Below are positions 7,902-29,100 of a DNA stretch of 64,000 bases, one piece after another. Positions within the stretch are counted from its first letter, which is position 1. Every line of letters begins with the position of its first letter. The position numbers were made by a program, and so were the translations under genes. Source of the stretch: Photobacterium leiognathi (GTDB taxonomy: Bacteria; Pseudomonadota; Gammaproteobacteria; Enterobacterales; Vibrionaceae). Below the pieces are notes generated by a model. It saw only the letters and a list, made by a program, of their open reading frames with translations, was not told where the DNA came from and ran no database searches. The DNA is taken from positions 2,666,001-2,730,000 of the forward strand of contig NZ_CP131601.1 in NCBI RefSeq assembly GCF_030685535.1, given 5' to 3'.

Positions 7902-8171
7902 TTAGCGACGTAGGCCTAGACGCTTGATTAGGTCTTGGTAACGATCTAGGTTCTTACCTTTTAGGTAATCTAGAAGCTTACGACGACGAGAAACCATACG
8001 TAGAAGACCGCGACGGCTGTGGTGGTCGTGCTTGTGGTTAGCAAAGTGACCTTGAAGGTGGTTGATTTGTGCTGTTAGTAGCGCAACCTGAACTTCAGGA
8101 GAACCAGTGTCGTTTTGACCTTGTGCGTATTCTGCAACGATTGCTGCTTTAGTTTCTGCATTCAGAGACAT
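7902..8171 (-). CDS. rpsO: 30S ribosomal protein S15
   Basis: Primary 16S rRNA-binding protein of the 30S platform. At 89 residues it has the exact family length, with the signatures [20 protein letters not shown] and [22 protein letters not shown]. It sits between truB and pnp as in E. coli, with its own promoter, a leader of about 67 nt and a strong terminator. In E. coli, S15 represses its own translation through a leader pseudoknot. I cannot confirm the equivalent fold here by eye. Confidence 0.98.
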
Positions 8172-8244
8172 AACTCATTCCTAATACAAAGATGTTTTAA
8201 TTTGTGTCAGCCAATCTCTGATTCAGCCGACACCCGAGCCGCGG

Positions 8245-14531: not shown

Positions 14532-14550
14532 AACAACCCCCCTGGAAACA

Positions 14551-14570
14551 AAAAAAGGGCATTAAAGCCC
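14551..14570 (-). terminator. Short hairpin plus T run in the rimP leader
   Basis: Minus strand: GGGC, six-base loop, GCCC, then seven T, ending 20 nt before the rimP start. The stem is short, so it is a weak terminator or attenuator. Confidence 0.5.
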
Positions 14571-14603
14571 AGTAGATACCTGAATGGTCATGTTTCAGAT
14601 AAT

Positions 14604-14630
14604 AAAAAACCCCGAATTACGGGGTTTTTT
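14604..14630 (-). terminator. Strong terminator after tRNA-fMet
   Basis: CCCCG, loop AATTA, CGGGG flanked by six A and six T. It separates the tRNA transcript from rimP-nusA-infB. Confidence 0.88.
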
Positions 14631-14721
14631 ATTACTGGACCCTGATTACTGTGACGCATAAGTTGCTGTCTCAGTAAGAAAACAGACATTCGCATTTAAG
14701 AGTAGTCTATTTTCGGGAAAG

Positions 14722-14798
<77 letters not shown>

Positions 14799-14855: not shown

Positions 14856-14940
14856 TGGTGCCGAGAAGGGGACTTGAACCCCTACACCTTGCGGCACTAG
14901 CACCTCATGCTAGCGTGTCTACCAATTTCACCATCTCGGC
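14856..14940 (-). tRNA. tRNA-Leu (anticodon GAG)
   Basis: 85-nt class II tRNA with a long variable arm and encoded CCA. The acceptor stem is GCCGAGA with TCTCGGC, and the anticodon loop reads ATGAGGT. It lies 11 nt after the secG stop, like E. coli leuU, and is probably cut from the secG transcript. Confidence 0.96.
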
Positions 14941-24881: not shown

Positions 24882-25733
24882 TCAATGCCCTAATCCAAGC
24901 ATCCAATTAACAGTCGTGAAATAAATCATCATCCCAGTAATATCAACCATAGAAGCTAAGACAGGACTCACAAGTACCGCGGGATCCAAATTCAGTGCCC
25001 TTGCGATCATAGGTAACACTCCGCCTATGGTGGTTGAGATTACAACTTGGATCGAAATCGCAATACCTATTGCAAGAGCAATAGAATCAAGTGTCATTCC
25101 TGCAGGTAACACTACATCACCACTAAAGAAAATGACTCGCCCGATGATCACCGCAGCAAGGCTGATAGCAATAACCATCGCAACACGAAACTCTTTCCAC
25201 AAGACGGCTAACCAGTCCCGTGATTTTATTTCTTCCATTGCCAAAGCTCGCACCACCAAGGTAGCGGCTTGTGAGCCAGTATTTCCTCCTGCAGCTGCAA
25301 TGACAGGCATATAGATCGCAAGTAGCACTAATTGACTTAACGTATCCTCATAATGAGAAATAATTAAGCCTGAGACGATTCCCATTAGTGCCAAAACGAC
25401 AATCCAACCTATGCGTTCTTTCACATGATTGAAGACACTATTTTCTAGGTAATGCCCGGTAGGCTCGGCTTCTGAGCTAATAAGCCCTAATCCACTGGCA
25501 ATCTGACGGGCTCTGACTTCTTGTTTGAATTCGTTTAATCTATCTAATAATATTTGCACATGCCGTAATGGGCACTCATGAAGCATAGCTAACGCATCTG
25601 ATACCAGCATTTTTACAAGTAACTGTGCTTGCTCATCCAAATCATATTTTAGAAATGCATTACGTACTGCAAGTGCATCTTTCTGTGCTATTTGTGTTGT
25701 TGCAGCGAAAACTGCATCGTTCATTACCGCCAT
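24882..25733 (-). CDS. Short MgtE/SLC41-type magnesium transporter lacking CBS domains
   Basis: Predicted Mg2+ (possibly also Co2+) channel. The start at 25733 is chosen because CGGGAG lies eight bases upstream; an ATG at 25793 lacks such a site. Of 283 residues, about 1-105 are helical and resemble part of the MgtE N domain. The rest is the MgtE transmembrane domain, about five segments, with the signature PVIAAAGGNTGSQAATLVVR near residue 143 and a later conserved Asp/Pro segment (NLDPAVLVSP). The CBS pair that normally separates the two parts and senses intracellular Mg2+ is absent, so gating must differ. A leader of about 300 nt precedes the gene. Confidence 0.88.
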   Translation of the reverse strand: MAVMNDAVFAATTQIAQKDALAVRNAFLKYDLDEQAQLLVKMLVSDALAMLHECPLRHVQILLDRLNEFKQEVRARQIASGLGLISSEAEPTGHYLENSVFNHVKERIGWIVVLALMGIVSGLIISHYEDTLSQLVLLAIYMPVIAAAGGNTGSQAATLVVRALAMEEIKSRDWLAVLWKEFRVAMVIAISLAAVIIGRVIFFSGDVVLPAGMTLDSIALAIGIAISIQVVISTTIGGVLPMIARALNLDPAVLVSPVLASMVDITGMMIYFTTVNWMLGLGH

Positions 25734-25844
25734 GGCGAATCTCCCGATTGGCTGACTCTCTAAAAGAGATGGTAACGACCACCGACATAGCATTACGTAT
25801 TATCAGCAACAACTATCGCCAATGCTGAATAATTAATGCTATGA

Positions 25845-26060
25845 ATTAAGATAGGAAATGGAAAATCAAAGGAAAGTTGTCGTGAAAGTGCATCACTAAA
25901 AAGGAAGGTTGGACATACTATTCCGTACTCAGTAGTACGGTGAAAACAATGGATACCGTAAACTAAGCGAGATTTTCCTGCTTCATACTTGGGGGATGGT
26001 CGGTATCGTTCATTATTGTCTCCAAAAACATCTATCGCTTACTGCGACGCCTGCATTCTA
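25845..26060 (-). promoter_or_regulatory. Candidate translation-coupled attenuator leader of the mgtE-like gene
   Basis: Minus strand, in order: a possible -10 TAGAAT (26055-26060), a 16-codon ORF, then segments able to pair alternatively. A is GATACCG (26001-26007, inside the ORF), B is TACGGTATC (25952-25960), C is ACCGTACT (25934-25941) and D is AGTACGG (25923-25929). A pairs with B (7 bp), B with C (6 bp) and C with D (7 bp, ACTG loop). No T run follows C:D; instead there is a C-rich, G-poor stretch (about 25850-25915) such as Rho uses. All regulation is inferred from this layout. Confidence 0.5.
25963..26013 (-). CDS. Leader peptide ORF (16 codons) upstream of the mgtE-like gene
   Basis: Encodes MNDTDHPPSMKQENLA. 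It has a textbook ribosome-binding site, GGAG six bases before the ATG. Acidic and proline codons cluster near the start (Asp3, Asp5, Pro7, Pro8). The Salmonella leader peptide MgtL also has an early acidic/proline stretch that destabilises ribosomes at low Mg2+. The similarity is in composition, not sequence, and the ORF is too short to prove by reading alone. Confidence 0.5.
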   Translation of the reverse strand: MNDTDHPPSMKQENLA

Positions 26061-26123
26061 AATAAATCAACCTGTACAGAAACTGATTATCAAAGTTTAT
26101 TTATTTCAATTAATTATAAAAAT

Positions 26124-26153
26124 AAAAAAGCCGAGCATCATAGCTCGGCTTTT
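26124..26153 (-). terminator. Terminator of carB
   Basis: GCCGAGC, six-base loop, GCTCGGC, followed by six T on the minus strand. Confidence 0.88.
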
Positions 26154-26174
26154 CTGTTTCAATTCACGTTACAC

Positions 26175-29100
26175 TTACTTAATACGTGCGTGTAGCTCTT
26201 GAATTGAGGTAACTGTATTGCGGTCATCTGCGGTATGCGCCATGCAGGTTGCAAATGCAGCATTTAGCGTTGTAGTGTAGTTCACCTTCTCAGCTAGTGC
26301 ACCACGACGAAGTACTTTTGAATCTTCAATCGCTTGGCGACCAGCTGCTGTGTTAACAATGTAGGTGTATTCATTGTTCTTGATACGGTCAAGAATATGA
26401 GGGCGACCTTCATGTACTTTGTTAACAAGGCGAGGGTTAATACCCGCTTCACCAAGAATCACAGCTGTGCCGTGAGTCGCATCTAGTTGGTAACCTAGCT
26501 TAGTTAGCTTAGAGGCTAGATCAACCACACGTTGCTTATCACCTTCACGAACAGACAGGAGCGCACGGCCACCTTCTGGGTACTCTTTACCACAACCTAA
26601 TTCAGCTTTGGCGAATGCTTCTGCAAACGTATTACCGATCCCCATGACTTCACCTGTTGAGCGCATTTCTGGGCCTAACAGTGGGTCAACGCCTGGGAAC
26701 TTGTTAAACGGTAGCACCACTTCTTTCACTGAGTAATACGGCGGAATGATTTCCTTAGTAAAACCTTGTGATTCAAGTGATTGCCCAGCCATAACACGCG
26801 CTGCAATCTTAGCTAGTGGTGCACCTGTTGCTTTAGAAACAAACGGTACGGTACGTGCTGCACGAGGGTTAACCTCGATTAGGTACACTTGACCATCTTT
26901 GACAGCGAACTGAGTGTTCATTAGGCCACGAACACCTAATTCAAACGCAAGGTTCTTCACTTGCTCACGCATCACATCTTGGATTTCTTGGCTTAGAGTG
27001 TACGCAGGCAAAGAACATGCTGAGTCACCTGAGTGAACACCTGCTTGCTCGATATGCTCCATGATACCGCCAATCACCACTTGCTCACCGTCACAAATCG
27101 CATCAACGTCAACTTCAACAGCATCATCTAGGAAACGATCTAGTAGTACAGGTGATTCGTTTGAAACGCTAACAGCTTCATTGAAATAGCGACGCAAATC
27201 TTGCTCGTCGTATACAATTTCCATTGCACGACCGCCAAGCACGTAAGAAGGACGTACAACCAGAGGGAAACCAATTTCACGTGATTTCTCAACCGCTTGC
27301 TCCATAGTCGTCACAGTTGCGTTTTCAGGTTGTAATAAACCTAAACGGTCAACCGCTTGTTGGAAGCGCTCACGGTCTTCTGCACGGTCAATCGCATCAG
27401 GGCTTGTACCGATGATTGGCACACCTGCAGCTTCTAGTGCACGTGCTAGTTTCAGTGGTGTTTGACCACCGAACTGAACGATAACGCCTTTTGGTTTTTC
27501 AACGCGTGCGATAGCTAGTACATCTTCTAGTGTTACTGGCTCGAAGTACAGGCGATCTGATGTGTCGTAATCCGTTGATACTGTCTCTGGGTTACAGTTA
27601 ACCATGATAGTTTCGTAACCGTCTTCACGCAGTGCTAATGATGCATGTACACAGCAGTAATCAAATTCGATACCTTGACCGATACGGTTTGGACCACCGC
27701 CCAATACCATGATCTTATCTTTGTCGGTTGGGTTTGCTTCACACTCTTCATCGTATGATGAGTACATGTAAGCGGTATCAGATGAGAACTCAGCCGCACA
27801 CGTATCTACACGCTTGTAGACTGGGTGAATGTCGAACTGATCGCGTAGTTTGCGAATTTCACCTTCACCAATGCCAAGTAATTTAGCAAGACGCGCATCA
27901 GCAAAACCTTTACGCTTCAGTTTGCGTAGTACTTCTGCATTCAGGCCAGCAAAGCCTGCCGCTTTCACTTGCTCTTCAAGCTTGATGATTTCTTCAATTT
28001 GAACCAAGAACCAACGGTCGATGTTAGTAAGGTTAAAGATACCGTCAACAGACATGCCAGCACGGAACGCATCACCAATGTACCAAATACGCTCTGCGCC
28101 TGCTTCTTTCAACTCGTGACGGATCTTGCTCATCGCATTTGGATCGTCAAGGTCAACCATTTCATCAAAGCCCATCGCGCCAACTTCTAAGCCACGTAGT
28201 GCTTTGTGTAGTGATTCTTGTTGGTTACGGCCAATCGCCATAACCTCACCGACTGACTTCATCTGTGTCGTTAGGCGATCGTTAGCACCAGCAAATTTCT
28301 CGAAGTTAAAGCGAGGGATCTTCGTTACTACGTAATCGATAGTAGGTTCAAATGATGCTGGTGTTGCTCCACCTGTGATATCGTTCATCAGTTCATCAAG
28401 AGTGAAACCAATTGCCAGTTTTGCCGCGATTTTTGCAATCGGGAAACCTGTTGCTTTTGATGCTAGTGCTGATGAGCGAGATACACGTGGGTTCATTTCG
28501 ATGATAACCATACGGCCATCTTTCGGGTTGATACCAAACTGTACGTTTGAACCACCTGTTTCAACACCAATTTCACGCAGTACTGCAAGCGATGCATTAC
28601 GCATTAATTGGTATTCTTTGTCTGTTAGGGTTTGCGCAGGTGCAACTGTGATTGAGTCATAGGTGTGAATACCCATAGGGTCAAAGTTTTCAATCGCACA
28701 CACGATGATACAGTTATCGTTCTTATCGCGAACCACTTCCATTTCATATTCTTTCCAACCAATTAATGACTCATCAATCAGGAGCTCATTGGTTGGTGAA
28801 AGATCGAGACCACGAGAACAGATCTCTTCGAATTCTTCTTTGTTGTAAGCAATACCGCCACCCGTACCACCCATAGTAAATGATGGGCGAATGATACATG
28901 GGAAACCAACCATATCGAGCACTTTGTAAGCTTCTTCCATGGTTTTCGCAGTATCGGCGCGAGGACACTCTAAGCCAATAGATTTCATTGCTTTATCGAA
29001 GCGAGAACGGTCTTCTGCTTTATCAATAGCATCGGCTGTTGCACCGATCATCTCAACGCCGAACTCTTCTAGTACGCCATGACGCTCAAGATCAAGTGCA

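Follow-up and report, generated by a model that had tools for sequence, protein, structure and literature searches.

A conserved DxPPS leader ORF with rival RNA pairings precedes CBS-less mgtE genes across much of the Vibrionaceae

Mg2+ transporter genes of enterobacteria are preceded by leaders that pair a short upstream ORF (uORF) with rival RNA folds, as described for mgtA and corA (PMC11552253). According to the same source, a pyrimidine-rich rut flanks the stem of the OFF fold in the corA leader and is hidden in the ON fold, and corL expression is inverse to that of corA. The EPDP motif of MgtL is linked to ribosome drop-off (EttA paper, PMC11282234), and three of the Pro codons in mgtL are of the CC[C/U] type, which is m1G37-dependent and conserved in mgtL (PMC6335274). 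The mgtP leader of Salmonella mgtCBR carries a 17-codon ORF that contains a run of three Pro codons, answers to a shortage of proline and contributes its final codons to a switching helix (PMC3641672). Other RNAs occur ahead of mgtE genes: the M-box (ykoK) Mg2+ riboswitch can precede them (PMC12810186), and the 'mgtE motif' riboswitch candidate is a structured RNA, reported from Thioalkalivibrio alone, that spans the mgtE start codon and is presented without mention of a uORF in the available part of PMC11109978.

The leader described here lies ahead of an mgtE gene of Photobacterium leiognathi, in a stretch of 64,000 nucleotides that was analysed as a whole and is called the window below. Like mgtL-mgtA of Salmonella and E. 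coli, it combines a short ORF carrying early Pro and acidic codons with rival folds and a Mg2+ transporter gene downstream (PMC6335274, PMC11282234, PMC11552253), and Rho-dependent termination, known in mgtL, is putative in the mgtE leader. It differs in preceding an MgtE channel instead of the MgtA ATPase, and in having adjacent prolines where those of mgtL alternate. The predicted OFF stem with a pyrimidine-rich tract, and an ON fold that would hide this tract, recall corL-corA of E. coli and Salmonella (PMC11552253), with another transporter downstream. The resemblance to both systems is one of layout, in the sense of 'works like mgtL/corL'. The consecutive Pro codons, a similar ORF length and the use of the last codons in a putative switching helix are shared with mgtP, which differs in its response to proline supply, its third proline and its downstream gene, mgtC. 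A scan of the window with Rfam yielded no known RNA family at gathering score in the leader, and when positions 25500-26200 were scanned down to E 10, the M-box covariance model was still missing from the list of matches; the identity with an M-box was rejected, and the leader, in contrast to that riboswitch, has a conserved ORF. Our literature search, which left most subscription papers outside its reach, returned no published description of this leader, and the available part of PMC11611912 contains nothing on it.

The channel gene and all parts of its leader lie on the minus strand, and coordinates are positions in the window. The channel gene (24882..25733) encodes a 283-aa protein with the PF01769 membrane domain of the MgtE family (E 7.7e-32), and the Thermus MgtE pore domain matches it at E 8e-30. 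Neither the MgtE_N nor the CBS domain was found in this protein, even at E up to 10, and the full-length model TIGR00400 scored below its cut-off, being matched in its C-terminal part only. Domain searches thus confirmed what the preliminary description had read from the translation, namely a transporter of a different class from MgtA, of MgtE type and without recognisable CBS domains. By the mgtE gene, the closest named relative is P. lucens (95% identity). The gene order is carB, an intrinsic terminator-like hairpin (26124..26155), the leader and mgtE, whose start lies 280 nt downstream of the leader ORF start. Elsewhere in the window, Rfam placed the rimP and ribosomal S15 leaders at 14550-14661 and 8115-8234, both on the minus strand, and two tRNA genes are found at 14725-14798 and 14859-14940.

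The leader ORF (25963..26013), MNDTDHPPSMKQENLA, runs for 16 codons from an ATG at 26013 to a TAG at 25965-25963 and is preceded by a Shine-Dalgarno sequence, GGAGA (26019..26023), five nt ahead of the ATG. Both elements can be read directly from the sequence, as had been proposed, and the GGAG core shows no variation across 26 aligned Vibrio leaders. As a guard against circularity, mgtE copies were found by protein alone before their upstream regions were inspected. The ORF was present at 52 of 53 CBS-less copies obtained in this way (42/43 in the first protein search, 10/10 in the second), spread over seven Vibrionaceae genera and one genome of another family (G118), and the sole copy lacking it is the second one in its genome (L054). 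At nearly all of these loci the Mg2+ transporter gene is thus preceded by a short ORF that has a ribosome-binding site and is predicted to be translated, as in attenuators of the mgtL/corL kind. The start codon is GTG in five leaders, and CTG occupies the aligned place in L166. The interpretation as a chance ORF was rejected, given the 52 of 53 mgtE-anchored copies that keep it and the invariance of residues D5, P7 and P8.

A strict leader pattern matched 204 of 329 Vibrionaceae genomes, with two matches in a backwards control. CBS-less mgtE was found at 95 of 97 loci fetched from these matches, a set in which some genomes are counted twice and 40 loci were hand-chosen among the listed matches. 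From the 125 Vibrionaceae genomes without the strict pattern, 80 were searched with the mgtE protein at a threshold of E 1e-40: 69 gave no match at this threshold, one carried a full-length copy, and ten carried the CBS-less gene behind a variant leader, such as MNVIDQPPSCKGSL, MSNADNPPSSRGEK or MQNVDFPPSLNGIGNN. An order-wide pattern search produced matches in 26 of 394 genomes, 24 of them Vibrionaceae (34 Vibrionaceae had been drawn). The two others were G118, a genuine case in which mgtE follows, and G581, a chance match at which there is no mgtE; a second pattern match in G361 was likewise due to chance. The leader start is separated from the mgtE start by 201-378 nt across 109 leaders, and by 120-194 nt in five diverged ones.

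The proposed sensor comprises codons 5-9, D-H-P-P-S (25987..26001). D5, P7 and P8, forming a DxPPS motif, are invariant in all 121 leaders collected; the pattern through which many of these were found itself demands the three residues, while the 52 mgtE-anchored ones, in which the motif is equally invariant (52/52), were chosen independently of it. Residue 6 is H in 107 leaders, Q in seven, N in three, F in two, and otherwise Y or S, and residue 9 is S in 119 of 121. The codons of P7 and P8 have fixed first and second positions in the 121 leaders and vary at the third (T 81 and C 40 at P7; G 52, T 48, C 17 and A 4 at P8). Such third-position-only variation is a coding signature, pointing to selection on the residues or the codons. 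D5 GAC and the T-ending S9 codon AGT are nearly fixed at the nucleotide level, so there is a constraint on the RNA too. For P7 all 121 leaders use CCC or CCT and none uses CCA or CCG; among the Pro codons of 39 long ORFs in the window, CCA ranks first (41%) and CCC accounts for 4%. Early acidic and Pro codons, here D5, P7 and P8, are a feature of attenuators of the mgtL/corL type; the single invariant acidic residue of DxPPS, as against the EPDP of MgtL, counts against a reading of that type.

According to the preliminary description, codons 3-5 (segment A) can pair with a segment B, B with C, and C with D. All three pairings are present in the window. Segment A (26001..26007), GATACCG, is complementary to CGGTATC in segment B (25952..25960), which lies just past the stop codon; B pairs alternatively with segment C (25934..25941) as TACGGT:ACCGTA, and C with segment D (25923..25929), the 3' arm of the C:D hairpin, as CCGTACT:AGTACGG. 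Two further elements were absent from that description. Hairpin P1 (26034..26048) directly precedes the Shine-Dalgarno sequence of the leader and, judged from the presumed start site, is probably close to the 5' end of the RNA. A helix E:F joins the last codons of the ORF, segment E (25971..25978, codons 12-15), to segment F (25860..25867), which is complementary to E and lies within a pyrimidine-rich tract. In the window E:F pairs GGAAAATC with GATTTTCC; examples from elsewhere are GGGAGAAAAAT with ATTTTTCTCC in Vibrio and GGGAAGC with GCTTCCC in another genus (g3). The stretch 25733-26045 folds better than 100 of 100 shuffles (z -3.3). Sequence comparison thus confirms a putative leader-peptide switch that is conserved across much of the Vibrionaceae and larger than first reported.

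Support for the pairings was evaluated by partner-swap tests, in which the duplex energies of a leader's own segments were compared with those of segments exchanged between leaders (5000 permutations). For this set, 114 leaders were thinned to 43 whose sequences beyond the stop codon are less than 80% alike; L125 (MNNTDHPPVAG) and the diverged L163-L168, seven of the 121, were left out. Own partners outperformed swapped ones for A:B (-12.9 vs -11.3, z -5.9), B:C (-9.4 vs -7.4, z -7.0) and C:D (-12.6 vs -6.3, z -14.6), each with 0/5000 permutations as good, as well as for E:F (z -4.7, 0/5000; control region, z +0.7). The C:D result is partly circular because this hairpin was located by its stability. 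Relatedness was gauged through control pairings only: these gave z -0.7 for B:D and z -1.6 for A:D, and A:C (z -2.5, 36/5000) was itself low, indicating that relatedness adds to the scores. Among 19 Vibrio representatives taken alone, A:B (31/5000), B:C (0/5000) and C:D (0/5000) held, and E:F gave 6/5000. In the 10 Photobacterium representatives B:C (48/5000) and C:D (0/5000) held, and no covariation was detected for A:B (1015/5000) or E:F (4177/5000). Against composition-shuffled tracts, E:F was better by more than one standard deviation in 22 of 43 leaders and by more than two in 11 of 43.

In the alignment of 26 Vibrio leaders, the fold consisting of P1, A:B and C:D had 93.7% of its cells paired, and the fold consisting of P1, E:F and the B:C core had 96.8%, each above all 500 shuffles; the outer B:C pairs were left out of these fixed-column counts because the alignment shifts register there. 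All C:D cells are paired in the 26 leaders, 13 with both sides changed, and 98.1% of E:F cells are paired. Cells with changes on both sides number 26 in the A:B/C:D fold and 15 in the E:F/B:C fold; P1 accounts for 13 in each, C:D for 13 and E:F for two. A:B and B:C have none, so their support rests on the cross-clade swap tests. A phylogeny-aware covariation analysis of the Vibrio set ranked pairs of P1, where covariation is strongest, near significance (E 0.055 and 0.07), followed by C:D pairs in third and fourth place, and gave no signal in Photobacterium alone; it is underpowered for A:B, B:C and C:D taken singly, which is why the swap tests were used instead. RNAalifold, supplied with no structure, recovered P1, A:B and C:D together with a short helix inside the ORF. 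In place of E, it paired F with the leader Shine-Dalgarno (columns 39-43 with 199-203 of alignment A2). F is indeed complementary to the Shine-Dalgarno as well as to E, and might therefore block renewed initiation at the leader ORF as well. In L163-L168, the six diverged leaders, the peptide is retained and no comparable switch was found. Comparison with relatives bears out the earlier pairings in the swap tests and, for A:B and C:D, in RNAalifold, and falls short of doing so in the phylogeny-aware test and for A:B within Photobacterium.

To relate the rival folds to the position of the ribosome, the 43 leaders were folded at 28 °C with the footprint blocked, counting a helix as formed at 3.5 or more expected pairs. 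With the footprint at the stop codon, C:D was predicted in 41 of 43 leaders (A:B 9, E:F 4, B:C 2). The footprint of an initiating ribosome gave E:F in 41 of 43, B:C in 33 and C:D in nine; when P8 occupied the P site of a halted ribosome, the counts were 29 of 43 for B:C, 13 for C:D and two for E:F. Without a ribosome, E:F was predicted in 31 of 43, B:C in 25, C:D in 18 and A:B in 16; the rival folds of the window then differ little (-55.49 vs -55.51 kcal/mol), and in 26 of 43 leaders they lie within 5 kcal/mol of each other. These counts suggest that C:D is the sign of a finished peptide and that B:C is favoured when the ribosome does not finish, joined by E:F if it is lost or stops early on. 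Two of the counts speak against the attenuation model set out below: a ribosome that stopped precisely at P8 would itself cover E, and A:B forms in no more than nine of 43 leaders when the stop codon is occupied. The leader folds are mutually exclusive and one is predicted to hide the pyrimidine tract, to a modest extent: the predicted unpaired fraction of the tract is 0.435 with an initiating ribosome, 0.496 at P8 and 0.529 at the stop codon.

This tract (25843..25922), a putative Rho-loading region, follows D and is C/T-rich and G-poor. The 80 nt after D in the window contain 25% C, 9% G and 44% T, a composition as G-poor and C-rich as this being found in nine of 6392 80-nt windows over both strands of the 64 kb. 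C exceeds G across these 80 nt in 43 of 43 leaders, with averages of 0.29 for C, 0.09 for G and 0.45 for T in the first 40 nt. The composition is compatible with Rho loading but does not prove it. No terminator-like site with a T run was found at C:D in the window, and the earlier observation of a C:D hairpin without a T run followed by a C-rich, G-poor stretch was upheld.

Comparison across genomes supports the conservation of the ORF and its DxPPS motif, the pairings and the tract composition; from these we infer that the ORF is translated, that Mg2+ is the signal and Rho the terminator, and which of the folds is ON. Our preferred reading, to which we assign a probability of about 0.55, is that the leader is a ribosome-operated transcription attenuator of the mgtL/corL kind; these odds rest on the conserved peptide and on the outcome of the swap tests. 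The transcript would begin near P1, and a ribosome would start the leader ORF. At sufficient Mg2+ it would get past D5-x-P7-P8-S9 and arrive at the stop codon, covering E and B, so that C:D forms; the C/U-rich tract, segment F included, would then be open to Rho and mgtE would stay untranscribed (OFF). At low Mg2+ the ribosome would probably halt or drop off at DxPPS, whether because the nascent chain destabilises the ribosome, because Pro-Pro bonds form slowly or because CC[C/U] codons are read poorly. E:F and B:C would then form at the expense of C:D, and the tract, partly hidden in this fold, would let transcription continue into mgtE (ON). The mgtL-mgtA logic invoked by the preliminary description is thereby retained for the layout, in that a leader ORF, rival pairings and a C-rich tract stand ahead of an MgtE gene in the arrangement of the mgtA and corA leaders; the course of events in the cell is the conditional part of the comparison.

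The same switch might answer to another signal. As in mgtP, a lack of charged tRNA-Pro or of EF-P activity could make the ribosome halt at Pro-Pro, in which case the leader would sense proline or the osmotic state, and Mg2+ not directly. The invariant prolines at codons 7-8 would suit this reading, as would the behaviour of mgtP described above, the appearance of Photobacterium damselae mgtP in the alignment legend of PMC3641672 and the action of EF-P on mgtL (PMC6460261). We nevertheless consider it unlikely, since D5 varies no more than the prolines do, and the leader ORFs of MgtE relatives start with acidic residues (MDNDS, MDGDS) and have no early Pro-Pro. Less probable still, in our judgement, would be a switch that dispenses with Rho, with C:D and a U-rich tail acting as a weak intrinsic terminator and B:C as its antiterminator. 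AUCUUUU or a similar sequence does follow D in a number of Vibrio leaders; in the window, D is followed by AAUAGUAUGU, with no terminator-like site at C:D, and the feature common to the leaders is the C-rich, G-poor tract, which makes this arrangement improbable.

Two further readings both appear very improbable. The leader could be an element of translational coupling or RNA stability acting on mgtE translation; the ability of F to pair with the leader Shine-Dalgarno is in keeping with this, against which the mgtE start lies 201-378 nt past the leader ORF start, away from the switch, and none of the pairings noticed in the folds touched it. The RNA could also sense Mg2+ directly as a riboswitch, with the ORF merely setting the folding pathway, a question called unsettled for the mgtA leader (PMC11552253). 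This we regard as the least probable alternative: the absence of any Rfam family at gathering score, the absence of the M-box among 21 weak matches and the conservation of DxPPS at the codon level all weigh against it.

The preliminary description further supposed that Mg2+ sensing had moved from protein to RNA with the loss of the CBS domains. This supposition is not supported, since there are MgtE relatives that keep the CBS region and also have Asp- or Pro-rich leader ORFs. The subfamily contains full-length MgtEs whose membrane domains are 46-53% identical, among them six (L055-L059 and L197) whose leader ORFs begin with MDNDSRRW... or MDGDS... behind strong ribosome-binding sites; in L055-L059 these Asp-rich ORFs lie about 195-240 nt ahead of the gene. 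Pfam confirmed the CBS domains in both relatives scanned, L055 and L057. Since the subfamily has leader ORFs both with and without CBS, these ORFs are not tied to the loss of the domains, and the idea that this loss brought about leader control was rejected. The MDNDS/MDGDS pattern gave 11 matches in 10 of 329 genomes, five of which precede MgtE and six of which do not.

In genus g14 of another family (f2), a full-length, 435-aa-type MgtE was found in seven of 11 genomes searched. At all seven loci (L202-L208) a leader peptide MEIDIPPS or MKKDIPPS lies some 150-200 nt ahead of MgtE; these leaders were chosen with a filter that required an acidic or Pro-Pro start, and each locus gave one match. 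The MgtE genes of L205 and L206 contain an internal TAG. In an alignment spanning residues 96-434 (49% identity), the CBS region of this MgtE lines up with the one in L057, and a Pfam CBS match was not reached at E 10. DxPPS is found ahead of two MgtE types. Of 20 loci of housekeeping MgtEs, 17 gave a match, and inspection of these 17 by eye found an early Asp/Pro ORF at L184 only (MDPIPSPRWDEITETCNNYLR); several start codons there were chosen crudely, making this negative a weak one. A strict pattern for the L184-type leader matched one of 32 genomes of its family.

DxPPS at the very start of a nascent chain may be a self-standing sensor of low Mg2+ that causes the ribosome to fail. As DxPPS or Asp-rich variants (MDNDS, MDGDS) precede several MgtEs with and without CBS, we tentatively suggest, with somewhat more doubt than conviction, a general Mg2+ gauge that is reused across the unrelated MgtA, CorA and MgtE and is coupled here to a two-helix (B:C plus E:F) antiterminator. 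If this were so, Mg2+ sensing by faltering ribosomes would not be confined to the enterobacterial MgtA and CorA; it would have arisen as a solution more than once and would govern MgtE channels in a large marine family as well. The more than 100 natural peptide and RNA variants would then be a resource on what makes a nascent chain Mg2+-sensitive for the ribosome.

Two minor observations concern MgtE genes elsewhere. In Photobacterium damselae, a gene that carries the name MgtE (A0J47_RS13535) is listed as 5.35-fold higher at 1% than at 3% NaCl (PMC10308900). A single MgtE locus, L061, has VEPDSCHYCSY together with MNSNSQEPPSWRFKIVHL as leader candidates.
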